Virus record (IMG/VR): IMGVR_UViG_3300020470_000131
Coordinates: 1-30,757 of that record
DNA length: 30,757 nt
Direction: 5' to 3' (one strand)
Source: a virus
The notes under the pieces were generated by a model. The model saw only the letters and a program-made list of their open reading frames with translations. It made no database searches and had not been told where the DNA came from. The translations under genes and the position numbers were made by a program. Below, one piece after another: positions 3 to 18,118 of the stretch; the first letter of the stretch is position 1, and each line of letters opens with the position of its first letter.

Positions 3-956
3 AAAAACCTTCACATTGAACACCCTGAAGACAGCATCTTAACAGGAGACTTATCCGTGTTAGATGCTTTTTTATTGCCCCTGCTTCTATCACTCAAAAT
101 TGATGGGGCACCCGCTATCGTATGGGGTCGCAACCCTGCAAGTGGTTTGCAGTTCGTGGGAACCAAATCAGTTTTTAATAAGAAGAAAATTATCATATGT
201 GAAACCCCTTCAGATATTGAGAAGCATTATGGACATAAACCCGCACTCTTGAAAATCCTCATGGCGTGTCTGGCATACCTGCCAATAACTAAGAACATTT
301 ATCAGGGTGACTTTATCGGATTCGGCGGTGCTAAGAATTACAGACCGAACACCCTCACTTATAAGTTCCAGGAAACCGTTAGTGAGAAAATCATCATGGC
401 ACCCCATACAAAGTATTTTGCCATATCCGATTTGCGTGATGCCATCGCAAGTCCATTACTTGAAAAGTTAGAAAGCACCGATGACGTGAAGTACGTCCAA
501 CCCCGTGCTTATATCCGTTCCGAATACGGTGCCCCGTTGGGTGAGGGAGTTGACTCATTCCGTGATCTTGAAACTTTGGTTGACCATGCAAAGAGACTTG
601 CAGCGGATGTTGATTTTGTAGATGAGCGAACAGCAAAGAAAATTAAGGTCAACCTAAATGCTCTTATTCGTGAGGGTAAGGAAATTGACGGTGACGTTTT
701 TGAATGGGCGGGTCTATGCTCCGCTGAGTTGATCGACTTATGGCATACCGTAAATGAAATCAAGTTGGCAGCGTTGCAAAGTTGCAAAGATGATTCAGAT
801 TTTCAAACCTGCGTCATGGGAGACCCCGAACCGATTCAGGGTGAGGGGTACGTCATGATTACCCGCTTTGGATATTTTAAATTAGTCAACCGTAGAGCAT
901 TCTCATATGCTAATTTTAATAATGATAAGTTCGCAGCGTTCGCACCTGTTGCTTAA
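3..956 (+). CDS. DUF6267-like phage protein with nucleotidyltransferase/ligase-type motifs (5' truncated)
   Basis: The reading frame is open to the left edge, and the residues before the first possible GTG start at 57 (HIEHPEDSILTGD) look like the conserved lead-in of this phage family. I therefore read the gene as continuing upstream of the window, with GTG57 an internal codon. Numbering from codon 57, KIDGAPA (14-20) resembles motif I of the covalent nucleotidyltransferase superfamily (KxDG, with K as the nucleotide acceptor). QGDF followed by YRPNTLTY (83-102) sits where motif III is expected. EGYV (263-266) followed by FKLVNR (274-279) resembles motifs IV and V. Similar proteins occur widely in T4-like marine phages as DUF6267, without a proven function. 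Nucleic-acid ligase or capping-type chemistry is an inference from these motifs. The gene is followed by a hairpin terminator, so it probably ends its transcription unit. Its base composition is clearly less AT-rich than the structural genes downstream. Confidence 0.75.
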   Translation, partial: KNLHIEHPEDSILTGDLSVLDAFLLPLLLSLKIDGAPAIVWGRNPASGLQFVGTKSVFNKKKIIICETPSDIEKHYGHKPALLKILMACLAYLPITKNIYQGDFIGFGGAKNYRPNTLTYKFQETVSEKIIMAPHTKYFAISDLRDAIASPLLEKLESTDDVKYVQPRAYIRSEYGAPLGEGVDSFRDLETLVDHAKRLAADVDFVDERTAKKIKVNLNALIREGKEIDGDVFEWAGLCSAELIDLWHTVNEIKLAALQSCKDDSDFQTCVMGDPEPIQGEGYVMITRFGYFKLVNRRAFSYANFNNDKFAAFAPVA

Positions 957-1062: not shown

Positions 1063-1146
1063 CCCCTCATGACTAAAATTTTTTTCCCCAGCCCTCAAAG
1101 ATCACAAAGTCTATATAAAAACAAAATGGGTTTCTGGATGGAATGT

Positions 1147-1320
1147 ATGAAAAAAAATTTCGACCAAATTTTTTCGACCATAGAGATCGATAGAGTAACG
1201 GGGGAGTATTATACAATTATTCCAGAGCAATTAATGAATGAATTCGGTTGGTACGAAGACACCGAACTCAAATGGACTGTCGATAGCGATGAGATAATTA
1301 TTCAGGAGAGAGAAGATTGA
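1147..1320 (+). CDS. Small AbrB-like conserved phage protein
   Basis: This 57-residue protein has the look of a small AbrB/MazE-type swapped-hairpin protein: a short beta strand, a polar turn (EIDRVTGEYY), the strand-plus-helix start IIPEQLMNEFGW, then two strands (ELKWTVD, EIIIQE). Proteins with the same VTGxYYxxIPExxxNExGWYEDTE core and similar length are common in marine T4-like phages and have no proven role. DNA binding is an inference from the fold class. The frame is open back to an ATG at 1069. I prefer ATG 1147 because the residues before it look unlike the family, it has a purine-rich GGATGGA just upstream, and a late box sits too close to 1069. ATG 1126 and 1138 are also possible. 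The last codon and stop overlap the TTG start of the next gene. Confidence 0.65.
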   Translation: MKKNFDQIFSTIEIDRVTGEYYTIIPEQLMNEFGWYEDTELKWTVDSDEIIIQERED

Positions 1321-4987: not shown

Positions 4988-7900
4988 ATGATACATACTG
5001 GTTTTGAGTCTAAGGTTAAGGTTCAGCAAATTATCGGGAACCAACTTCCCGAATTTGTCGTAGATGAAAATCCTGCAGCCGTCGATTTTTTAAAGCAATA
5101 TTATATTTCCCAAGAATTTCAGGGTGGGCCTACTGATTTATCGGATAATTTAGACCAATATTTAAAATTAGATAATTTAACACCAGATGTAGTGGTTGGA
5201 TCCACTACACTTACTACTGGTATAGGAACAGATGATAAAACAATCTCAGTTTCCAACACAAAAGGATTTCCTAATCAGTATGGATTGTTAAAAATCAATG
5301 ATGAAATCATAACATACAAAGGAAAGACATCAACCACGTTTACAGAGTGTATTCGTGGATTTTGTGGTATTACCAGTTACCATGAAGATCTAAAAGAGGA
5401 AGAATTAGTATTTTCTACTTCAGGAATTTCATCTCATACTCAAGATTCATATATTCAAAATTTAAGTTCTTTATTTCTTAAAGAATTTTATAAAAAACAG
5501 AAATCAACGTTAGTTCCAGGTTTAGAAGGAGTTGATCTTGCTTCTGATTTAAATGTAGGGACATTCATAAAGGAAGCAAAGTCATTATATGAGTCAAAAG
5601 GAACAGATGAGTCATTTAGAATCCTTTTTAATGCTTTATATGGAGAAACCCCTAAAGTAGTCAATTTAGAGGAGTTTTTGATTAAACCATCTTCTGCAAA
5701 TTATGTCAGAAGAGAAATTATTATTGCGGAAGCACTTGCTGGTAATCCTTTAGATTTGGTTGGTCAGACAATATACAAATTAGGTGATTTGAATACTAAT
5801 GCGTCTATTTCTGAAGTTGAAACATTCAGTAGAGCTGGAATAGCATTAACCAGTAAGCAGCAGTATTTCAAAATATCTCTTTTCCGTGGTTATTCGGATA
5901 TAGAAGATACAATACAAGGAGATTTTAAAATAACTCCTTCAACAAGAGCACTTGATACTGTCAGTGTCGGTTCATCAGTAATAACAGTTGATTCTACCGT
6001 AGGTTTTGGTACTACTGGAGTTTTAGTTGCAGGAATCAATACAAATATCACTTATACTGGAAAAAGTGTAAATCAGTTCTTTGGATGTGATGGTATTACT
6101 GGTGTTATTACATCTACTTACTCTGTAAGGAATGATGAGATTTATTATGGTTATGAAAATGGTGATACGACCAAAAAAGTTGATTTAAGACTTACAGGTG
6201 TATTATCAGAGTTTGAGCAGGTCTCTAAAACATTAGCTGTCGATGAAGGTCAGATAATTTCAGTAAAAAATGTCGGTGATTTAATAGAAGGTAATTATTA
6301 CAATAAAAGTTCATCTGTTTATGAGAATATGACTCATAAACAAAAATTTGCAAATTCTTTGATTTATAATACCTGTGTAAGATATAATATAAAATCTATT
6401 TCTAGTTCTAAAGTAATCTTTGATGGTGAAATTGACAGAAGTAGTCTAAAGAAAGATGATCAAGTAGAAATACTCGTCAGAGCATCGAATAATGTTGTTC
6501 TTGGTGATACTTTTGATGTATTTGTAGAAGAAGTTGGAGGTCTTGCAGGTGATGCTAAAGAAATAAAACTTACATCGTCATTTGTTCCTGTTCCTGATAC
6601 AGAATATGATCTAAGAAGAAAAGTTAATTATGCAAAGAGTAATGCGGTTCCTTTAGAAGTCAGTAAGATTGTATCTGACGTACAGAATTTATATACTGAA
6701 GAGGATGATTATGTTTATGTTGCTTCCAATTCATTACCTTCAAAAGTTTCTTCTGTATTTTCTGGATTTACTTCTTCTTTTGTTAATGATGTCAACACTG
6801 AATTAAAGGCAGTTTCTGTCGATTATCCTCCATCTGCTGTTGGTACTGGATTGACTGCATTGGTTGGAATAGATACTGTCACATTTGGTGCTATTCAATT
6901 TGGCAATGATGTTCCTTTTGTGACAGGAGATCAGGTATATTATCAACCTTCTGGAAATTCTTATGTTGGATTGGAAACGGGTAGTTATTTTGTAGGAATT
7001 TTAACCACTTCTAGTGACACAAGAACTATACAATTATATTCATCACAATCTTTTATTAATACTGGTAATTATATACAATTAAAATCTAATAGAATTGTAA
7101 GTACAGGAAGTTCTTTTATCACAGAATATTCAACAGGTAATCATAAGTTTACCTTATATTCTCAAAAAACTAATGAAATTGCTCCTCAGAAACTACTTAA
7201 AAAGTTTCCATTAGAACTAACCACTAATAGAGGAAAACAAACTGAAACACCTATAGGTTCTACTGGATTGTTAATTAATGGTGTAGAGATTACTAATTAT
7301 AAGTCGAAGGATAATATCTATTATGGACCTTTAAAATCTATTAATATTTTAAATGGTGGTTCTGATTACGATCTTGTCAATCCACCAAAAATAGAAATTT
7401 CTGCAGGATCAGGGACGACTGCATTAGTTCAACCAGTTATTGAAGGTGGTATAAAAAAAGTTTATATTGACAAACAGCAATTTAATATTAATGAATTTAT
7501 TTCTATTAATATTACTGGAGGAAATGGAGATGCTGTTTTAGAACCATCTATCGTCAGGTCAAGTAGAAGTGTTGAGTTTGATGGAAGAATCACCAATAAT
7601 GGCGGTGGAATTAGTACAGCTACTAATACCATTACATTTTTAACTGATCATGATTTTTATAATCAACAACAAGTAATTTATAATTCTAATGGTCAATTAG
7701 GAATAGGTGTTGGTATTGGAACAACAACATTAGTTACTAATTCATCTTACTTTGCTAAAGTGACAGCAAATAATAAGATTCAATTATATTATTCTCCAGA
7801 AGATGTTGTAGCAAATGGTGTAGGGGTTAATACTGTAGGATTAGGTGTTTCTAATACTTCAGGTATTCATAGATTTGTTACTTTACCAAATCAAAAATCT

Positions 7901-10900
7901 ATTGATAGTATCAAGGTTTTAGATGGAGGTATGTTTAGTAATAGAAAATTATTAGTTAAACCTTCAGGTATATCGACACAATATAATAAAATCACTTTTG
8001 AGAATCATGGATTTGATGATGGTGATGTAATTGAGTATAATATACAATCTGGTTTGGGTACTGTTTCTCCACAACCAATTTCTGGATTGACCACTGTTAC
8101 AGGAATAACGACAACCACACAATATTATAACATTGTAAAGTTGGATGATAATTCTTTCCAATTATCTGATGCTGGTGTAGGAGCAGGTGTAAGTGATACT
8201 AAGTTTGAACGTGGATTAACTATAGACTTTTTATCACAAGGTACTGGATATCAAATATTTAAATATCCAGATGTAGAGATAACATTAAAGTATAGTCCTG
8301 TTGGGTTTGGTACAACATCTCAAAGTTATACTGATATGGTATTAACTCCTGATATTAGGGGAAGTATTGTTGATTCTTATCTTTATGAACCTGGTACTGG
8401 TTATGGATCTACAATATTAAACTTTGAAAAGAAACCAACGATATCCATAAAAGCAGGAAAGAATGGAGTTTTAAAACCAGTTGTCGTAAATGGGTTAGTT
8501 GAAGCTGTCAATATTCAATATGCTGGAGAAGAATATTTTTCTATTCCAGAATTAGAGGTATTTGATCCTACTGGAGCTGGTACTGGTGCTGAAATAAGAC
8601 CAGTCATAGTTAATAATAAAATAAGTGATGTTAAAATTGTTAATACTGGAATTGGATATTCAAGCACATCTGTTGTAAAAGTTAATTCACCAGGTAAAAA
8701 TGCAGTATTAGATACTTCTATTAGATCATTATCACTCGATTTAAATAATAAAATGGGTGATCAATTGTTATTGGAAGGTCCTAATAAGTTATCTTATAGT
8801 CTTTGTGGTTATGCAAAGACCTTTAGAGAATCTTTTGGTGAAATAGGAAGTGGAACAACACAAGCTTCTAAGATCATTGGATGGGCTTATGATGGAAATC
8901 CAATATATGGACCTTATGGATATGAAAATGTATCAGATTCTAGTTCTCCAGCTAGAAGATTGGTTAGTGGTTATGAGGCAAATATTACAAATATTGTAGA
9001 TAGACCTGTTGGATTCTCTGCTGGTTTCTTTGTAGATGACTATAAATTTACAAATAATGGTGATTTAGATCGTAATAATGGTAGATTTGGAAAAACACCA
9101 GAATTTCCTAATGGTACTTATGCATATTTTGCTACAATAGATGATGCTGGTAAGACTCAATTCCCATATTTCATCGGAAATTCATATAGATCCGTTCCTT
9201 TAGAGCAAAATATTGATCAAGATTTTGATTTTAAGGGTTCAGAGTTAAGAAGAAATACATTTCCTTATAGAGTTTCTGATAAAAATGCTGATAATGACTT
9301 TATTATTGAAACCAATGAACTTGAAGATCAAAAAATAGAGATAGAATCAGTTACTGACGGTTCAGTTGATCAATTATTGGTCGTTTCAGCAGGAGAAAAT
9401 TATAAAATTAATGATTCTATTGATTTTGACAACACTGGTGGTGGTTCAGGAGTAATTTCTAAGATTTCTTCCTTAAAAGGAAAGGATGTTACCAATGTAA
9501 GTGTTGCAACATCTTCATATAATGATGCAGTATTCAGTTGGGTTAATAAAAATACCATAAGAGTTAGTGTTTTACCAAGTCATGATTGGATAAACAATGA
9601 TTATATTACAATTTCTGGTGTTTCTACTTCATCTGGCATTTCTTCTAGTATTTCGGCATTAAGTCAACTAGATGGAAATTATAATATTGGAGTTTCTTCT
9701 TTAAGTGCATCAATAATTTCGGATGTAATACCATCTGCATCGGGAGTAACAACTGAAATATATGTTACTTCGATACCAGAGACCATTTCAATAGGAAGTA
9801 GTGCTGTAATTGGTGGAACAAATACTGAAATAGTAAAAATTCTTAATATCTATAGAGATCTTAAGGCATTGAGAGTTATAAGATCTACAGGACTTGCTCA
9901 TACTATATCCTCACCTATAACTTATACTTCAGATTCTTTTACTATTGATAGGTCAACAGATTATTTTGAATCTGAAGTAAATGATATAGTATATTTTAAC
10001 CCATCACAATCAGTTGGTTTTGGAACGACAGCAGGAGTTACTCATACAACCTCCTTCCGTTTTGGTTCTACAGAAATAATTACAAGAAATATACCAACTA
10101 AGAGAATTTATCTTGGGGAACATCCATTTCAAGTTGATCAACAGATAACATTTGCTAAACCAACTCCAGGTGCAGCTTCTATTGTGATATCAGATACTCC
10201 CACATCAACCACGTATGACCTCCCATCCACTGTTTACATTGCTGATGTCACACCAAATACGATTGGTATAAAAACAGGTATTGGCACAACCAGTGGAGAT
10301 TTCACTGATGTATTCTTTACAAGTGGTGGTTCTGATATTGATGATTACTCATTTACAACTAATTATTCACAAGTAACTGGGAATCTTCAGAGATTGACAG
10401 GAACAGTTGCAATAACCACAACTGCTACGTGTAATTTAAAATTTGGAGATAGAATTAAATTAGATATTAAACCAGATTTATCAGTTGGAATCGGTACATC
10501 TACTGCTGTAAGAGTTGTAAGAGATTCTGATACTGGTTATATCTTAATAGATCCTGTTGAAACTTCTTCTGCAAATATAAATCTTACAGATGATACTATC
10601 AGGATTAATAGTCATGGATTTGAGAGAGGTGATAAGATATTCTATACCATTGCAGATGGTACTGTTCCAACTGGTCTAACAACTAATAGATCATATTTTA
10701 CATATGTTGTTGATGAGGATCATATTAAATTTTCTGAAACATCTGTTGATTGCTTTAGTAATCCACCAATAACTGTAAGTATTGCATCTACTGGTACTAG
10801 TCAAAGTAAATTCTATCAAATTAATCCTCAACTTGAGGTTGTTAAAAATAACAACTTAGTATTTGATTTATCAGATTCTTCTTTAGAGAATTATCAATTA

Positions 10901-13900
10901 AAATTCTATTATGATAATGAATTTAAAAATAATTTTGTATCTACAGGATCTACTACGAATACATTTAGTATAGTTAGTGCTGGTGGAACAATTGGAATAG
11001 GAACCACAGCTTCAACTACACTTAATCATAATGCATCTTATCCATCTAAGTTATATTATTCTCTAGAAAGATCTGGATTTATTAGTACAGCAGATACTGA
11101 AGTTAATAATCATTCTGAAATAAAATTTGTAGATAGTAGTTTCAATAGGTCATATAGTGTTGTTGGAGCATCTTCATCTACATTTAATATTTCTTTAGAC
11201 CAAATTCCAGAAAAACTATCTTATTCTGATAGTGAGTGTGATTCTATAACTTATACTACAACATCTTTAAATGAGACAGGTGGTATTAATGCTGCCAATA
11301 TTATTTCTGGTGGAGTTAATTATAAGAAATTGCCTAATTTTGTTGGATCATCTTCTACTGAAGGGACTGGTGGTTATGTGATTGCGAAATCAAGGACTAT
11401 TGGTAATGTTAAGCAAGTAAGAATTATTAATGAGGGATTTGAATATTCTACAGACAGTACCTTAGAACCTTCTGCATTAATTTCTCCACTCATTTCGATT
11501 AATAATTCCAATACCATAGGTGTTGTTAGTATTACTAGTGGTGGTTCTGGTTATATAGATGCTCCAGATATAATTATTGTAGATTCTACATCAAGAGAAA
11601 AAATTGATAGGGGTATTCTTAGACCAACTCTAACTGGATCAGCTATTTCTAAGGTTGAGGTTGTAAGTTCTCCAAATGGTCTTTCTGATGAACCACCTAC
11701 ATTATTCACAATTAATAATGATAATGGTGTTGGTATTTCATCTATTGTCTCTAACTCAACTGGAATATTTACATGTTGGTTAGATACTCCTTCATCAGGA
11801 TTTTCAACTTTACCATTCTTGGTTAATGATGAAGTATTCATAGAAAATGTTACTCAACATGATCCAGTATCAATAGGAGGATCTGGATTTAACTCTGAAG
11901 ATTATGGATATAGATTTGGTAAAGTTACCAATTATATTACTGGATTAAAAGATAGAGTTACAATTGATCTTGCTGGCATATCCACTAACACTGGAATAGC
12001 AGTTACTGATCAAGGCTCATTTGCAATGATAATCAATAGAAAGAATTATCCATCTTTCACTACAGTTGAGGAATCAAATAAATTTATTATTGGTGAAGAG
12101 TTAATAAAAGATAATGTTTTAGTAGGATTGGTAATTACACATTCTGAAACTGACTTTATTAAAGTATTTGGTAATCATGAGTTAAAAGTTGGTGATATTG
12201 TTACTGGAAGAACTTCTGGATCAATAGCTACTATTTCAAGTATTCAAGAGAACTTAGGAAAGTATTCTGTTAAATTCTCAGTTAAAAAGAATATTGGATG
12301 GTCTGATGATATTGGAAAACTTGATTTGGATACTCAGGTAACACCAGATAATGATTATTATCAAAATCTATCATATACTATTAAGAGTACAAAAGGATTT
12401 GATGAATTAAGAAGTCCAGTAAGTGCATTACTTCATACAAGTGGACTTAAGAATTTTGCTGATGTAGGAATAGGTTCTACGACAAGATCAACTGGTGGAA
12501 TTTCTACAGTAGGAGATTGGAGAGTTGGAACATCTAGTACTGATTTTTCAGTTGTAATACAGGATGTTGTAAATGACAATAAGGTTTGGACTATTAATAA
12601 TTATGATGAAGCATATGATTATGGTAATAGTGCTACTCAATCTCGATATATAAAATTTGAAAATAAGGTTTTATCAGATTATACTACTGCTAAGAGTAAT
12701 GAAGTTTTGTTGATTGATGATATCAATAGTCAATTCTCTAATTTGGATGGAGAACCAAGCGAATATTTAGATCTTATAGAATTAGATAGTAATGTTCCCT
12801 ATCAAAATATCTTCTATAGAATTACTAACTTAACAAATACTGCTGTTCAATCAAATGATGTAGTAGTATTGAATAATGGAACAGATGTAGTTTTATTACA
12901 AAAATCTAATTTAGAAGATTCATCTAGTATTGGAAACTTTAGTATTAATAAAGATGTTTTTGGGGTATACACACTTAGATTTACACCAAATCCAAATGCA
13001 TTTGATTATGACTATAATCTCAAATCAATTAAGACTACTTTTGATAATTCTGCAGGTGTTGGAACTTATCCAGTAGGATTTATCAATAAAACTGGATTTG
13101 TAGGTATTGCTACGACAGCTAGTGCTGGAGTAACCACTACATCAGTTGTTTCAGTAGATTCTGCTAAGTTTAATTCTTTCCATGTTCAGAATCATTTAAC
13201 TAATAAGACGACTGATGAAATGAATTATGTGGAAATATATGTTACACATGATGGAACAAATACTTATACTTCTGAATATTATATTGATACCCATAATCCT
13301 GTAGATGGATATTCAAACACTTTAATGGGATCTTTTAAGGGGAATCTTGATGGATCTGTATTTTCTTTAGAATATGAGAATGATTCGACTGATGAGATTG
13401 AAATTAATTCTGATATTGTGGGATTTGGTACCACTGCTGTAGGTGTTGGAACATATAGGTTCCTTGCATCTGGCCAATCAGAAGGTGCTGAAAGAACTGC
13501 AATTTATCAATCTGATTATACAGTTGGAATAGGAACGACAAATATTGTTCAATTAACTGCAGGTTTATTTAATTCAGCTAAATCTATAGTTCAAGTTAGT
13601 GCTGGATCTACAAGAATTGTTTCAGAAGTTATATTTAATCATGATGCTACTGATACTTTTGTACAGACTGGCCCGTTTTTAACACCTGTTGGTATTGGAA
13701 CAACCAATCCAGTTGGAGTCTTTAGTGGAATATATGATGGTACTAACTTCTCTTTATCATTTACACCTGAAAATGGATATCTAGCAAATAGTATTGAAGT
13801 ATCTGCTCTTACTCTAGCATTGTATACTGAGAATGAAGAAGATAATATTCCTTTGATTAATGACTTTGAATATGGTAAAGTAAATGAATCTATTGATCTA

Positions 13901-16900
13901 CAATACTATAATGCTATTAATGGGTTAAGAATTAATAGAACTGAGTTCAGTTTACTTCATGAAGGAACACCAATCTTTGCCAAGACTTTCGATCCTAGTG
14001 ATTCTAATATTGTTAATCTTTCCACAGGTTTATTCAGCATTGATAAACATTTCTTCAGAACAAATGAAGAGTTAATATACACACCCAATTCTTCATTTGT
14101 TGGTCTTGGAAGTACTGCAATGCAATATCAAAGTGGTGCATATCATCATCAACTTCCATCTTCAGTGTTTGCTATTAGAAACGATGCTAACAGTTTCTAC
14201 ATATCAACAACAAGAGCAGGAGCAGCTGTCACATTTGTCGGAGTTGGTACTGGAAATATTCACGAATTTGCTATGGCAAATTCAAATACAAAAACAGTAT
14301 TAACTATTGATAATTTAATTCAATCACCATTAGCATATTCTCCTATTAGTCATACATTACAAAATAACCCAGAATCAGTATTGGGCAGCACTGGTATAGG
14401 TACTGATGCAACTATATTTTCTATCAGTGGAATATCATCATTAGCTCCTACTGATATATTAAAGATTGATGATGAGTTTGTAAAAGTTCTTGATATTGGA
14501 ATAGGAACTCAGACTACTGGGCCAATTACAGTTGGTGTTGGAACAACTAATTTGGTTCAAGTTCAAAGAGGTTTTGTTGGATCAGCTGCAACTGCTCATA
14601 CAAATACAACAGCAGTTCAACTTTATAAAGGTTCATATCGAATTCTTGGTAAGAAAATTCATTTCACAGAACCTCCTAAAGGAAATCCTCAAGTAACTAA
14701 GAATGATAGTAATTTGGATTGGCCAACCTCTTCATTTACTGGAAGAGTTTTCTTAAGAGATGATTATACTACCAACCAAGTGTATGATGATGTTTCTACT
14801 GAGTTTACTGGAATTGCCACAAACTTTAGTTTAAAGGTTAATGGATCTGCTGCAGTTGGTATGGGAACCACAGGTGGTAATGGTATTGCATTGATTAATG
14901 GTATATTCCAAAGACCAACAGCAAAAAATAATCCACAAAATAATTATGAGATATTAGATCCTACCACAGGGGCAGCTTCAACTAGTATAATGTTTACTGG
15001 TATTACTACGGAATATGGAGATCCAGTAGTAATTAATGATACTGATATAAATGAAAATCAATTACCAAGAGGTGGAGTAATAATTTCCTTAGGATCCACA
15101 CCAGGATTAGGATATGCTCCTTTGGTACCAGCACAAGTTTATGCAGAGACTGATGCTAATGGTACTATTACAAGTTTAGTCAGTGCTGCTTCAACAGGAC
15201 CTAGTAATTCTATTACAACGGCATCTTATAATAATGAAACTGGATATTTAGAGATCACTACTCAAAATGCACATAATTTTGTAGTTGGAATTGTAGATCA
15301 AGTAAAACTTGCAGGTTTAGAATTTACTTGTAGTGGATCGTTCAATGTCTACGATGCAGATTATAATGAAACCACTGGTGATTTAATATTGACAGTTGGT
15401 GATCATTATCTAGCAGCAGGTCAATTTATTGGAATTAAAACTGATTCTTTGACATTTACTTGTGATGCCGATAACTATGCAACAAATCATTCTTATCCAC
15501 GTCATGGTACTGATCCAATTGCAGGAGTATCTACATATATCAATTCAACAACCAATAGCACTATTACTGTTAATGTTGGTGTTGGAACTACTAGTACGCA
15601 TCAATTTGTGGGTGTTGGTACAGAAGCAATTATTGTTAGAAGTGGATATTCAGGGACAACCAGTAATATCTTCCCATATGCTGCTGTAGGATTTGGTAGC
15701 ACAAGTTTTGATTATACGATTGTAAGTATTGGTGCTACAAATAAATTTACAACTGACGTTGGAATTAACTCCATACCTCATACTTTTGTTGGTGGTGGTA
15801 GTGTAATGCCTTGGTATGCAGACGCTAATCTTGGTTCTGGTTATTATGGTGATACCGTTTCTATTGGGGTTACAGATATACCATTTACTCATAAGTTTGT
15901 AAGTGCTGCATCAGGTACTATAGTAGGTTATACTACTGCACCTTCTTATGTTGATTATAATGCAGCAACTGGATATATGGTGGTATCTCTACCTAATCAT
16001 GGAAAGACTACTAGTGATACTGTAACATTTGCTGATAACAAGATTACTCTTACGTGCTCTAAGGATGACTATGCAACAGAACATACTTATCCAAGAGCAA
16101 GTGATCGTATCTCAGGAATAGCAACTGCTATAACTGCTTATGATACAGATACATTTACAGTATATGTTGGTGAGAATGCTGGTTCAGGTGCTTCAGTTAC
16201 AGCCACAATAGGCATTGGTGGAACTCTAACCTTTGCTATTGGTGCTGGTGGTACTAATTACCAGAATCCAGCGATTAACATTCCTGAACCATCATATGCT
16301 GGTCTTGGAATTACTGGAATATCCAGACTATCAACTGGATCTACTACCGATACTGGAGTTGGATTACTTTTAGATTTACAAGTATCGGCAGCTTCTACTG
16401 TTGGTGTAGGGTCTACACAGTTTAGTATTAATAATTGGGAAATTGCAAGAAATGGATATGCATTCCAACGTGGTGATGTATTTGCTCCTGTAGGATTAGT
16501 TACAGATTCTAGTTTGTCAAGTCCAATAGAAGAATGTCAATTTACTGTATTGGATACATATGCAGATCCATTTGCAGCATGGCAATTTGGACAATTTGAT
16601 TATATTGATGATATTAAACCGTTCCAAGATGGAATTAGAAAAAGATTTGATTTAAAATATGATGGAGATCTTTTAAGTTTCGAAGTTCCAGCAAATCCTG
16701 AGTTCCCATATATTAGTCTTGCAAATGCACTATTCATTGTGATAAATGGCATTATTCAAGAACCAGGAACTGCTTATTCGTTTAATGGTGGTACCTCGTT
16801 TATATTTACAGAAGCTCCTAAAGCAGTAGATGATGTTGCAATATTCTTCTATCGTGGAAGTGCTGACGTTGATACAGTATTAGTTACTAATGTTATTCCT

Positions 16901-18118
16901 TCTGTTAAAGAAGGTGACTTAGTTGAAATGAAGAAAATTACTGCATTGAATCCTCCTACAGAAATTAATCAGACTCCTAGAGTTATTGTTGATTTATCTA
17001 CATCAGATAGAATCGAAACTAATTTGTATACTGGAGAAGGAATTAGTGATACAAAACCTAAGTCAATAAGTTGGACTAAACAAAAAATTGATAGAATTGT
17101 AAATGGTGAAATATTCTATAAATCTAGAGAAAGTTTAGAATCATTAATATTCCCAACTGGAAGAATTATTAGTGATTTCTCAACAACTGATAATGAATTA
17201 TTCCTTGATAATGGAGATTTATTTGATTATGATGTCGTACCTTCGGTTACTCCTCTTGGTGGATTTATCGTAGATAATAGTAGTCCTGTTGCTGCTGCAT
17301 TAACTGCTACAGTATCTGCTGCTGGAACTATTTCAGGACTTACCATTGTTAGTGGTGGATCTGGTTATGTTGGAGCAACAACTTCAGTTTCCATTGCTAT
17401 GCCACCAGTGGGTGTAGGCACCTTTATTAAACCAGATGGTTCAGTTGGTATAGGATCAACTGCAACAGCAACTGTTACAGTAACTAACGGAATTCTTACA
17501 GGAACTCCAACAATTACTGGAATTGGATTGGGTTATACAACTACAAATCCACCTAAAGTAATTGCTGCTCTTCCTTCATATAAGTCTGAGTTAATTACCA
17601 ATATTACTTCTGTTAAGGGATTTGCTGGAATTGTTACTGGTATTGGAACAGCAGCAGGTGTTGGTACAATAAGTGCTGTTAAGTTTCATCTAACTGGTAT
17701 TGGAACAGCAGTATGGAGTGATTTGAGTGTAGGATATCCTATTTCTGTATTTGATACACAAGTTGGATCTGGAGTAAGTTCTGTCTATGAATCTGGTAAT
17801 GGTATAGTTGGAGTTGGAACAACCTTCTTAGATAATATCTACCGTATTGCTCAGATATCTTATCCATCTGCATCTGGTGCAAGTGGATTGGTTACATGTA
17901 ACGTTGAGTATTTTGGTAATCATACTGGAATAGGATCAACTGGAAGTGTTGCAATAGGAGGATTCTCCTGGGGCAGATTAGCTGGAACTTTAACCAGAAA
18001 TTCACCAGTCGGGTTTGCAGTTAGTAACTATACTGTTAATTCTGGATTGACTACTTTCCCAACATTACAAAGAAGAAGTGAGGGAATTAGAGATACTGGT
18101 GGAATTGAACCAAAATAA
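4988..18118 (+). CDS. Giant gp7-position baseplate wedge protein with YHYH domain and many beta modules
   Basis: This uninterrupted 4,376-residue frame lies exactly between gp6 and gp8, where T4 has gp7 (1,032 residues), so gp7 function is inferred from position. The N-terminal part looks conserved: VDENPAAVDFLKQYYISQEF (about 25-44), then AKSLYESKGTDESFRILFNA (about 197-216). A YHYH-type domain spans about 1267-1401, with the core GWAYDGNPIYGPYGY (1298-1312) and FPYFIGNSYR at its end. A block near 3859-3980 (FGQFDYIDDIKPF, then FIVINGIIQEPGTAY) resembles parts of other marine T4-like structural proteins. The rest is a mosaic of repeated beta-rich modules with many G[IVF]G[ST]T turns, described in separate entries. 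No protease, lysozyme or transmembrane segment is evident. Its N-terminal part probably docks in the wedge while the rest forms an outward arm. Codon use is extremely AT-rich. Confidence 0.8.
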   Translation: MIHTGFESKVKVQQIIGNQLPEFVVDENPAAVDFLKQYYISQEFQGGPTDLSDNLDQYLKLDNLTPDVVVGSTTLTTGIGTDDKTISVSNTKGFPNQYGLLKINDEIITYKGKTSTTFTECIRGFCGITSYHEDLKEEELVFSTSGISSHTQDSYIQNLSSLFLKEFYKKQKSTLVPGLEGVDLASDLNVGTFIKEAKSLYESKGTDESFRILFNALYGETPKVVNLEEFLIKPSSANYVRREIIIAEALAGNPLDLVGQTIYKLGDLNTNASISEVETFSRAGIALTSKQQYFKISLFRGYSDIEDTIQGDFKITPSTRALDTVSVGSSVITVDSTVGFGTTGVLVAGINTNITYTGKSVNQFFGCDGITGVITSTYSVRNDEIYYGYENGDTTKKVDLRLTGVLSEFEQVSKTLAVDEGQIISVKNVGDLIEGNYYNKSSSVYENMTHKQKFANSLIYNTCVRYNIKSISSSKVIFDGEIDRSSLKKDDQVEILVRASNNVVLGDTFDVFVEEVGGLAGDAKEIKLTSSFVPVPDTEYDLRRKVNYAKSNAVPLEVSKIVSDVQNLYTEEDDYVYVASNSLPSKVSSVFSGFTSSFVNDVNTELKAVSVDYPPSAVGTGLTALVGIDTVTFGAIQFGNDVPFVTGDQVYYQPSGNSYVGLETGSYFVGILTTSSDTRTIQLYSSQSFINTGNYIQLKSNRIVSTGSSFITEYSTGNHKFTLYSQKTNEIAPQKLLKKFPLELTTNRGKQTETPIGSTGLLINGVEITNYKSKDNIYYGPLKSINILNGGSDYDLVNPPKIEISAGSGTTALVQPVIEGGIKKVYIDKQQFNINEFISINITGGNGDAVLEPSIVRSSRSVEFDGRITNNGGGISTATNTITFLTDHDFYNQQQVIYNSNGQLGIGVGIGTTTLVTNSSYFAKVTANNKIQLYYSPEDVVANGVGVNTVGLGVSNTSGIHRFVTLPNQKSIDSIKVLDGGMFSNRKLLVKPSGISTQYNKITFENHGFDDGDVIEYNIQSGLGTVSPQPISGLTTVTGITTTTQYYNIVKLDDNSFQLSDAGVGAGVSDTKFERGLTIDFLSQGTGYQIFKYPDVEITLKYSPVGFGTTSQSYTDMVLTPDIRGSIVDSYLYEPGTGYGSTILNFEKKPTISIKAGKNGVLKPVVVNGLVEAVNIQYAGEEYFSIPELEVFDPTGAGTGAEIRPVIVNNKISDVKIVNTGIGYSSTSVVKVNSPGKNAVLDTSIRSLSLDLNNKMGDQLLLEGPNKLSYSLCGYAKTFRESFGEIGSGTTQASKIIGWAYDGNPIYGPYGYENVSDSSSPARRLVSGYEANITNIVDRPVGFSAGFFVDDYKFTNNGDLDRNNGRFGKTPEFPNGTYAYFATIDDAGKTQFPYFIGNSYRSVPLEQNIDQDFDFKGSELRRNTFPYRVSDKNADNDFIIETNELEDQKIEIESVTDGSVDQLLVVSAGENYKINDSIDFDNTGGGSGVISKISSLKGKDVTNVSVATSSYNDAVFSWVNKNTIRVSVLPSHDWINNDYITISGVSTSSGISSSISALSQLDGNYNIGVSSLSASIISDVIPSASGVTTEIYVTSIPETISIGSSAVIGGTNTEIVKILNIYRDLKALRVIRSTGLAHTISSPITYTSDSFTIDRSTDYFESEVNDIVYFNPSQSVGFGTTAGVTHTTSFRFGSTEIITRNIPTKRIYLGEHPFQVDQQITFAKPTPGAASIVISDTPTSTTYDLPSTVYIADVTPNTIGIKTGIGTTSGDFTDVFFTSGGSDIDDYSFTTNYSQVTGNLQRLTGTVAITTTATCNLKFGDRIKLDIKPDLSVGIGTSTAVRVVRDSDTGYILIDPVETSSANINLTDDTIRINSHGFERGDKIFYTIADGTVPTGLTTNRSYFTYVVDEDHIKFSETSVDCFSNPPITVSIASTGTSQSKFYQINPQLEVVKNNNLVFDLSDSSLENYQLKFYYDNEFKNNFVSTGSTTNTFSIVSAGGTIGIGTTASTTLNHNASYPSKLYYSLERSGFISTADTEVNNHSEIKFVDSSFNRSYSVVGASSSTFNISLDQIPEKLSYSDSECDSITYTTTSLNETGGINAANIISGGVNYKKLPNFVGSSSTEGTGGYVIAKSRTIGNVKQVRIINEGFEYSTDSTLEPSALISPLISINNSNTIGVVSITSGGSGYIDAPDIIIVDSTSREKIDRGILRPTLTGSAISKVEVVSSPNGLSDEPPTLFTINNDNGVGISSIVSNSTGIFTCWLDTPSSGFSTLPFLVNDEVFIENVTQHDPVSIGGSGFNSEDYGYRFGKVTNYITGLKDRVTIDLAGISTNTGIAVTDQGSFAMIINRKNYPSFTTVEESNKFIIGEELIKDNVLVGLVITHSETDFIKVFGNHELKVGDIVTGRTSGSIATISSIQENLGKYSVKFSVKKNIGWSDDIGKLDLDTQVTPDNDYYQNLSYTIKSTKGFDELRSPVSALLHTSGLKNFADVGIGSTTRSTGGISTVGDWRVGTSSTDFSVVIQDVVNDNKVWTINNYDEAYDYGNSATQSRYIKFENKVLSDYTTAKSNEVLLIDDINSQFSNLDGEPSEYLDLIELDSNVPYQNIFYRITNLTNTAVQSNDVVVLNNGTDVVLLQKSNLEDSSSIGNFSINKDVFGVYTLRFTPNPNAFDYDYNLKSIKTTFDNSAGVGTYPVGFINKTGFVGIATTASAGVTTTSVVSVDSAKFNSFHVQNHLTNKTTDEMNYVEIYVTHDGTNTYTSEYYIDTHNPVDGYSNTLMGSFKGNLDGSVFSLEYENDSTDEIEINSDIVGFGTTAVGVGTYRFLASGQSEGAERTAIYQSDYTVGIGTTNIVQLTAGLFNSAKSIVQVSAGSTRIVSEVIFNHDATDTFVQTGPFLTPVGIGTTNPVGVFSGIYDGTNFSLSFTPENGYLANSIEVSALTLALYTENEEDNIPLINDFEYGKVNESIDLQYYNAINGLRINRTEFSLLHEGTPIFAKTFDPSDSNIVNLSTGLFSIDKHFFRTNEELIYTPNSSFVGLGSTAMQYQSGAYHHQLPSSVFAIRNDANSFYISTTRAGAAVTFVGVGTGNIHEFAMANSNTKTVLTIDNLIQSPLAYSPISHTLQNNPESVLGSTGIGTDATIFSISGISSLAPTDILKIDDEFVKVLDIGIGTQTTGPITVGVGTTNLVQVQRGFVGSAATAHTNTTAVQLYKGSYRILGKKIHFTEPPKGNPQVTKNDSNLDWPTSSFTGRVFLRDDYTTNQVYDDVSTEFTGIATNFSLKVNGSAAVGMGTTGGNGIALINGIFQRPTAKNNPQNNYEILDPTTGAASTSIMFTGITTEYGDPVVINDTDINENQLPRGGVIISLGSTPGLGYAPLVPAQVYAETDANGTITSLVSAASTGPSNSITTASYNNETGYLEITTQNAHNFVVGIVDQVKLAGLEFTCSGSFNVYDADYNETTGDLILTVGDHYLAAGQFIGIKTDSLTFTCDADNYATNHSYPRHGTDPIAGVSTYINSTTNSTITVNVGVGTTSTHQFVGVGTEAIIVRSGYSGTTSNIFPYAAVGFGSTSFDYTIVSIGATNKFTTDVGINSIPHTFVGGGSVMPWYADANLGSGYYGDTVSIGVTDIPFTHKFVSAASGTIVGYTTAPSYVDYNAATGYMVVSLPNHGKTTSDTVTFADNKITLTCSKDDYATEHTYPRASDRISGIATAITAYDTDTFTVYVGENAGSGASVTATIGIGGTLTFAIGAGGTNYQNPAINIPEPSYAGLGITGISRLSTGSTTDTGVGLLLDLQVSAASTVGVGSTQFSINNWEIARNGYAFQRGDVFAPVGLVTDSSLSSPIEECQFTVLDTYADPFAAWQFGQFDYIDDIKPFQDGIRKRFDLKYDGDLLSFEVPANPEFPYISLANALFIVINGIIQEPGTAYSFNGGTSFIFTEAPKAVDDVAIFFYRGSADVDTVLVTNVIPSVKEGDLVEMKKITALNPPTEINQTPRVIVDLSTSDRIETNLYTGEGISDTKPKSISWTKQKIDRIVNGEIFYKSRESLESLIFPTGRIISDFSTTDNELFLDNGDLFDYDVVPSVTPLGGFIVDNSSPVAAALTATVSAAGTISGLTIVSGGSGYVGATTSVSIAMPPVGVGTFIKPDGSVGIGSTATATVTVTNGILTGTPTITGIGLGYTTTNPPKVIAALPSYKSELITNITSVKGFAGIVTGIGTAAGVGTISAVKFHLTGIGTAVWSDLSVGYPISVFDTQVGSGVSSVYESGNGIVGVGTTFLDNIYRIAQISYPSASGASGLVTCNVEYFGNHTGIGSTGSVAIGGFSWGRLAGTLTRNSPVGFAVSNYTVNSGLTTFPTLQRRSEGIRDTGGIEPK
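5250..5425 (+). repeat. DDE-I-x-Y / RG / H adhesin-like module, copy 1
   Basis: The encoded pattern is: a short strand, GFPNQYGLLKINDEIITYKG, a threonine-rich strand, CIRGFCGITSYH, then a closing strand. This matches a small module common in phage tail and fibre proteins: G-(f/p)..G-x-(l/i)-x-I-x-(d/n)-E-x-I-x-Y, then RG and H. Further copies are at 5960-6155 (degenerate) and 14415-14640 in this gene, and at 26035-26250 in the DUF4815 gene. Confidence 0.6.
5960..6155 (+). repeat. DDE-I-x-Y / RG / H module, copy 2 (degenerate)
   Basis: The reading VDSTVGFGTTGVLVAGINTN, then ITYTGKSVNQFFGCDGITGV, follows the same order as copy 1: an entry strand with GF, a short central strand, Y-T-G-K, then a C-x-G-I-T-G turn. 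It has lost the acidic pair and the RG. I read it as a diverged relative, with less certainty than the other copies. Confidence 0.4.
13160..13832 (+). repeat. Tandem pair of about 95-residue beta modules inside the giant gene
   Basis: Two neighbouring stretches (residues about 2726-2825 and 2859-2950) share the same order. First is KFNSFHVQ or LFNSAKSIVQ, then a strand with VTHDGTNTY or FNHDATDTF. Next is SFKGNLDGSVFSLEYEND or VFSGIYDGTNFSLSFTPENG, then a closing strand that runs to IEINSDIVGF or IEVSALTLALY. The pattern implies an ancestral tandem duplication with later divergence. The DNA is no longer obviously repeated, so the event is old. Confidence 0.55.
14415..14640 (+). repeat. DDE-I-x-Y / RG / H module, copy 3
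   Basis: The translation contains LAPTDILKIDDEFVKVLDIG, then LVQVQRGFVGSAATAHTNTT, preserving the IDDE strand, the RG turn and the histidine of copy 1. It differs by an inserted G-rich loop with two GxGT turns between the two halves. It lies about 9 kb downstream of copy 1 in the same gene. Confidence 0.55.
15227..16075 (+). repeat. Three-copy YN-xx-TG...TC repeat inside the giant gene
   Basis: Three segments of about 35 residues align by eye: YNNETGYLEITTQNAHNF (start 3414), YNETTGDLILTVGDHY (3459) and YNAATGYMVVSLPNHG (3657). Each ends in a strand with EFTC, TFTC or TLTC. Copies 2 and 3 are also followed by the same D-x-YAT-x-H-x-YPR stretch and a strand ending in VNVG or VYVG. The first copy lacks that second half. 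Confidence 0.65.

Follow-up and report, generated by a model that had tools for sequence, protein, structure and literature searches.

What does a protein family do that is near-universal in the T4-like cyanophages and so far has no assigned function? This question is raised by the first gene of a 30,757-base virus contig fragment (the whole stretch analysed here, hereafter the window), an open reading frame on the plus strand at positions 3..956 that is already open at the first base. Because the relatives of its product begin with M(T)KN[LT]H[IL]EHPED, the window protein falls short of its start codon and at most one further residue; residue numbers throughout are those of this truncated protein.

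The protein matches the Pfam profile DUF6267 (PF19782) with an E-value of 5.3e-71 and 240.4 bits, against a Pfam cut-off of 27 bits, which confirms the family label given in a preliminary description of the window, and all 47 sequences of our conservation alignment match the same profile. It belongs equally to PHROG_455 (E 3.1e-102), which PHROG labels 'unknown function', and to T4-GC 71, a tag attached to the DUF6267 gene in P-SSM2, S-SM2, S-PM2 and others. Searches of open-licence PMC text for DUF6267, phrog_455 and T4-GC 71 found no paper.

The gp6 protein of the window has 64.7% identity to gp6 of Synechococcus phage S-SKS1, in which the DUF6267 gene is ordered relative to gp25 and gp6 as it is here; given this identity and gene order, the window virus is very likely a T4-like cyanophage. 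A tblastn search of 50,697 phage records with a divergent DUF6267 member returned 470 records, nearly all of them from T4-like cyanophages (371 named Synechococcus, 61 Cyanophage and 24 Prochlorococcus). In these tblastn counts, compared by organism name rather than record by record, DUF6267 (371 Synechococcus and 61 Cyanophage records) is about as common as the core genes gp41 (376 and 61) and gp6 (373 and 61), and it is near-universal in T4-like cyanophages. Further carriers are phages of Methylophilales, Pelagibacter, Vibrio, Pseudoalteromonas, Xanthomonas and Stenotrophomonas, and 13 DUF6267 loci in bacterial and archaeal assemblies are taken to be phage contigs. The earlier attribution to marine phages was therefore right, and can be narrowed to T4-like cyanophages and their kin.

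Conserved motifs and predicted fold

The preliminary description had singled out KIDGAPA, GD...YRPN, EGYV and FKLVNR as nucleotidyltransferase motifs I, III, IV and V. These do occur in the protein, at residues 32-38, 101-103 (QGD) with 113-116 (YRPN), 281-284 and 292-297, and the order K32 ... D103 ... E281-G282 ... K293 fits the covalent nucleotidyltransferase (ligase/capping) superfamily. The features of the gene are listed below by window position, with conservation counted among 322 full-length-like relatives.

3..956, plus strand: DUF6267 gene, 317 aa, truncated on the 5' side where the contig ends; product predicted to be a covalent nucleotidyltransferase
12..32, plus strand: N-terminal HIEHPED signature, residues 4-10; H7 in 321/322, E9 in 320/322, D10 in 319/322
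96..116, plus strand: motif I (KxDG), K32-I-D34-G35-A-P-A, with K32 the predicted lysyl-AMP nucleophile; K, D and G each in 321/322
165..167, plus strand: K55, in 321/322
300..311, plus strand: motif III-like Y-Q-G-D103, the acid being Asp where Glu is usual; D103 in 322/322
339..350, plus strand: YRPN, residues 113-116; N116 in 322/322
405..416, plus strand: H135-T-x-Y138, where the next core strand ends; H135 in 321/322
561..782, plus strand: residues 187-260, a helical insertion that separates the H135 strand region from motif IV, seen in the alignment and the models
843..854, plus strand: motif IV, E281-G-Y-V; E and G in 322/322
876..893, plus strand: motif V, F-K293-L-V-N-R297, with one Lys and no K-x-K; K in 322/322, R in 321/322
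900..917, plus strand: C-terminal F300-xxx-N304-F305 helix, which closes the fold with no domain after it; F300 and N304 in 322/322, F305 in 321/322

By its spacing, K55 is probably the counterpart of the ligase motif Ia arginine. The relatives come from four viral-contig scans and annotated phage records (a fifth scan gave none), which together yielded a best match in 333 ORFs or loci; 322 pass a filter of at least 270 aa and an uncut 3' end, and 11 were dropped. Many of the 322 are near-identical to each other, and the same residues are invariant in 46 representatives with less than 78% pairwise identity together with the window protein. This set of 47 diverse sequences, in which the 46 others are 24-87% identical to the window protein, has 27 invariant columns. 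Loss of the motif I lysine among homologues, which the preliminary description had named as a way for its proposal to fail, was not the pattern found: the sole sequence without K32, D34 and G35 is the C-terminal half of a split gene in S-PM2, which is without the motif I region. A loose ligase-spacing pattern, devised after viewing the protein, is matched by 310 of 200,000 shuffles of the window protein, so that a chance origin of the motif spacing is unlikely, yet possible; the conservation just described is the more telling test.

Sequence searches by phmmer, hmmsearch, Pfam and hhalign gave no significant link between DUF6267 and ligases. In Pfam the window protein matches DUF6267 only, with no match to PF01068, PF09414 or PF09511 at E<=1, and neither the protein nor the family profile finds a PDB chain at E<=10. 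Alignment by hhalign to our own Rnl1, Rnl2 and gp30 profiles gave nothing significant, a weak negative because these profiles are small (5, 4 and 2 sequences) and one Rnl2 row (L340) is mis-framed, with stops.

We modelled the window protein with AlphaFold2 from the family alignment and no templates, obtaining a mean pLDDT of 90.9 and a pTM of 0.86. Foldseek against the PDB returns no match for this model at E<=0.001 (best E 0.017); its ranks 1-19 are DNA or RNA ligases without exception, at E-values that are not significant. When VIA-align was run on Foldseek's top 1000 chains, all 50 matches listed were ATP-dependent RNA or DNA ligase entries, the best being Naegleria RNA ligase (Z 8.9 over 176 residues, 3.5 A), with T4 Rnl1 at Z 7.7, Trl1 at 7.2, Rnl2 at 6.9 and DNA ligases at 5.8 or less. 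The aligned ends, which pair model residues 1-307 with Naegleria chain residues 143-339, would place K32 near K170 and K293 near K326 of the Naegleria ligase (mutant numbers taken from the entry titles). When a 415-aa relative was modelled as well (pLDDT 82.1), Naegleria ligase again headed the VIA list (Z 8.2), with ligases making up 44 of the 50 matches listed; in Foldseek the first places for this model went to unrelated proteins, and ligases come in only at E>2. An extra domain had been considered for this relative, and the model shows a longer helical insertion instead.

Best VIA scores of 7-8 are common without true kinship, so a Z of about 8 alone is not enough, and it is the invariant catalytic residues that carry the superfamily assignment. 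In our reading DUF6267 belongs to the lysyl-NMP nucleotidyltransferase superfamily as a remote but true member, and we consider a nucleotidyltransferase fold with covalent lysine chemistry highly probable. Since the model has a fold of the nucleotidyltransferase/ligase type, the earlier proposal was not overturned by an unlike fold; together with the invariant motif I lysine, the model thus supports the suggested lysine-NMP chemistry.

A minimal architecture and its precedents

Only 31 residues lie ahead of motif I in the truncated window protein, and the chain ends 20 residues after motif V, so that neither an OB domain nor a C-terminal RNA-binding domain could fit. The C-terminal OB domain with motif VI that characterizes DNA ligases is accordingly absent, and the protein is a minimal nucleotidyltransferase domain of the kind known from C12orf29/RLIG1. 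Classical ATP-dependent DNA ligases have an OB domain; with those of the T4 gp30 type (PF01068), DUF6267 has a nucleotidyltransferase core in common and differs in having neither OB room nor a PF01068 match. T4 Rnl1 (PF09511) and Rnl2 (PF09414) likewise have the superfamily fold in common with DUF6267 by VIA, but DUF6267 is matched by neither of their profiles, has no C-terminal RNA-binding domain, and is found beside both types in three phages. The best VIA match, Naegleria gruberi RNA ligase (5cot and the 6vt series), has an N-terminal OB domain, whereas DUF6267 starts 31 residues ahead of motif I.

The best precedent for so small a protein is C12orf29/RLIG1. As described for the Yasminevirus enzyme, C12orf29 is a proven minimal RNA ligase (active site K73, D75, R89, E174, H195, E240 and K253) that ligates tRNA halves, and its own top DALI match is 5cot (PMC11071452), so that Naegleria RNA ligase is the nearest solved fold for both proteins. 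From the same account, the two have in common a nucleotidyltransferase-only architecture and, in the same order, KxDG, a motif III acid, a later His and a motif IV Glu, the last standing 13 residues before the motif V Lys in C12orf29 and 12 in DUF6267 (PMC11071452). Judged from this order rather than from superposition, H135 may correspond to the active-site His195. DUF6267 differs from C12orf29 in its H(I/L)EH(P/L)ED signature, in the Asp of motif III, and in the helical insertion before motif IV, which is ~100 aa longer in other clades and is a candidate substrate-binding part. No sequence similarity between the two was found in a PDB search at E<=10, a set that may not include a C12orf29 structure, and C12orf29 is not among the 50 VIA matches listed for either model, an absence that excludes nothing.

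Taken together, these comparisons lead us to regard DUF6267 as a divergent and domain-minimal member of the lysyl-NMP superfamily and, with moderate confidence, as a polynucleotide ligase that would act through lysyl-AMP and represent a new, minimal family. The preliminary description had left ligation, capping and protein AMPylation open; the protein's fold neighbours and minimal architecture, as predicted, now favour ligation. One feature counts against a ligase: motif V has no second lysine. That DUF6267 is specifically an RNA ligase is a plausible but more tentative reading. By analogy with RLIG1, T4 Rnl1 and the Naegleria ligase, RNA would be the more likely substrate, with DNA nicks as second choice, and the coexistence with gp30-type ligases described below, together with the lack of an OB domain, makes a separate RNA-directed role more likely. 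In such a reaction Lys32 would attack ATP and then carry AMP, which Asp34, Asp103, Glu281 and Lys293 (metal and phosphate contacts) and His135 would position; the AMP would pass to the 5'-phosphate at a strand break, and a 3'-OH would displace it to seal the break. The target may be tRNA, or some other RNA, that is cleaved in the course of infection. This proposal gives a testable catalytic function to a near-universal, uncharacterised gene of widespread marine phages, and if DUF6267 is active it would extend the minimal RNA ligase class beyond RLIG1.

Genomic neighbourhood

In several phages DUF6267 lies directly after uvsX, gp41 and MazG; in the window's clade it lies in an ORFan region by gp25 and gp6 rather than by replication genes. 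Downstream, within 1.5 kb, a HIGH-type nucleotidyltransferase gene is found in 53 of 54, 59 of 59 and 47 of 49 loci of three clades (counting loci with at least 2 kb of downstream sequence). In the window's own clade such a gene is nearby in 0 of 65 loci, so the HIGH enzyme is not an obligate partner. The PHROG_455 profile contains DUF6267 fused to a HIGH-type domain, and BFVD models such as A0A0M6VVW4 are judged by length and name to be fusions of the same kind; the loci of the relatives yielded none. The neighbour is annotated in GenBank as 'cytitidyltransferase', and its best NCBIfam matches are NMN adenylyltransferases, all below cut-off. The neighbours at L087:5893-7050, L172:4599-5771 and L170:7583-9535 appear nearer to NMN adenylyltransferases than to cytidylyltransferases in these matches, and no NCBIfam model matched that of S-CAM3 (L086:5035-5598). 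In S-PM2 (AJ630128, L172:3992-5771) DUF6267 is divided between p138 and p139, the latter also with a HIGH-type domain; a 591-residue S-PM2 protein in BFVD matches the DUF6267 model, which suggests that the fused protein has also been recorded unsplit.

The slot directly upstream of DUF6267 is variable (L087, L132, L161, L227, L270, L283 and other loci). Its 224 ORFs of at least 250 aa, which stop close to where DUF6267 begins, sort into 16 mutually unrelated single-linkage families, one of which is gp41. In several of them a conserved Asp precedes S-x-K or E-x-K, an arrangement reminiscent of PD-(D/E)XK nucleases. A far-reaching extension of the ligase reading, which we hold to be improbable, would make DUF6267 the founder of a new ligase family and the missing end-joining enzyme of the T4-like cyanophages: with the NMN-adenylyltransferase-like enzyme that lies downstream in several clades, possibly supplying NAD+ as AMP donor, and the changing upstream protein, some forms of which are nuclease-like, it would couple cutting and sealing in a conflict or recombination system.

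Other ligases in the carriers and alternative readings

We surveyed ligase domains in 28 genomes, which were picked as DUF6267 carriers and so hold no information on its frequency; 25 are cyanophages or close kin, including one Methylophilales phage. Among these 25, PF01068 (DNA ligase) occurs in one, S-CRM01, and PF09414 (Rnl2 type) and PF09511 (Rnl1) in none, so that 24 have no other ATP-ligase domain; PF01653 (NAD+ ligase) is absent from all 15 cyanophage-type carriers examined. The three ATP-ligase profiles (PF01068, PF09414 and PF09511) were all detected in T4 as positive control. Outside the cyanophage type, Pseudoalteromonas phage XG4, Vibrio phage 2.275.O and Xanthomonas phage XaC1 carry DUF6267 together with all three, bringing genomes with DUF6267 and a PF01068 ligase to 4 of 28. 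According to a 2010 review, homologues of gp30 and RNase H were not found in cyanomyoviruses, the RNase H of S-PM2 excepted, and either distant homologues have escaped identification or the genes are absent, the latter being more probable because host enzymes substitute (PMC2984593). In the available part of a cyanophage genome paper, 'ligase' occurs only within the name of purM (PMC10436341). Our results reopen the question of which ligase T4-like cyanophages use, to which the review's answer was probably the host's (PMC2984593), and DUF6267 supplies a specific candidate for a distant homologue that has escaped identification.

Could DUF6267 then be an overlooked cyanophage DNA ligase that replaces gp30 in joining Okazaki fragments and in recombination? 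The near-absence of PF01068 (1 of 25) and absence of PF01653 (0 of 15) from cyanophage-type carriers, the review's option of distant homologues (PMC2984593), a frequency close to that of gp41 and gp6, and the position just after uvsX, gp41 and MazG in several phages are all consistent with this. Set against them are the missing OB domain, the ranking of RNA ligases above DNA ligases in the VIA list, the greater probability that the review gives to host ligase (PMC2984593), the location of the window-clade gene by gp25 and gp6 in an ORFan region, and the presence of a PF01068 ligase in S-CRM01 and the three non-cyanobacterial carriers. Since these three phages have all the classical ligases, the job of DUF6267 is not simply that of gp30, and a plain repair-ligase role would be redundant there. 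Because of the coexistence in 4 of 28 carriers, with all three types in 3, plain replacement of gp30 was dropped as the main reading; we think it rather unlikely.

Nucleotidylation of a protein or small molecule (AMPylation, or chemistry on cofactors or sugars), as part of one pathway with the adjoining HIGH-type nucleotidyltransferase, is suggested by the closeness of the two genes in three clades, by their fusion in the PHROG_455 profile and BFVD models, by the sub-cut-off resemblance of the HIGH enzyme to NMN adenylyltransferases, and by the assignment of some phage HIGH enzymes to NDP-sugar synthesis in a survey (PMC7824862). This too is unlikely, since the HIGH gene is near DUF6267 in none of the 65 window-clade loci and the nearest folds are nucleic-acid ligases. 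Capping enzymes also have motifs I and III-V, and human mRNA guanylyltransferase does appear in the Foldseek list, far down (rank 47, E 1.7); capping needs an OB domain with motif VI, however, which DUF6267 does not have. A degenerate nucleotidyltransferase that only binds nucleic acid would fit poorly with predicted catalytic residues that are all invariant, and which argue that DUF6267 is not decaying; we regard both a 5'-capping or guanylyltransferase-like enzyme and such a degenerate protein as very improbable. Hardly more probable is a convergent resemblance, in which an alpha/beta fold has acquired KxDG and EG by coincidence: the lack of any significant sequence match or Foldseek E-value would agree with it, but the predicted catalytic residues are invariant and correctly ordered, and the VIA matches listed for the window model are ligases only. 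We therefore retain the minimal polynucleotide ligase as the preferred reading.

Some further observations concern other genes and records. The ORF at window positions 1069-1320 (83 aa) matches PHROG_661 and has a MazE-antitoxin-like C-terminus below threshold (E 0.0027), and that at 1538-2299 encodes a PHROG_1574 protein, of a group without assigned function, with a weak glycosyltransferase match, a similar ORF following DUF6267 in L010 and L015. A single ORF of 4376 codons after gp6 occupies positions 4988-18118, in the baseplate region. In the metaG-MbCM1 genome (JN371769.1), the 728-residue protein H8ZNG8 contains DUF6267 and is annotated, apparently in error, as 'NrdB ribonucleotide reductase A subunit'.
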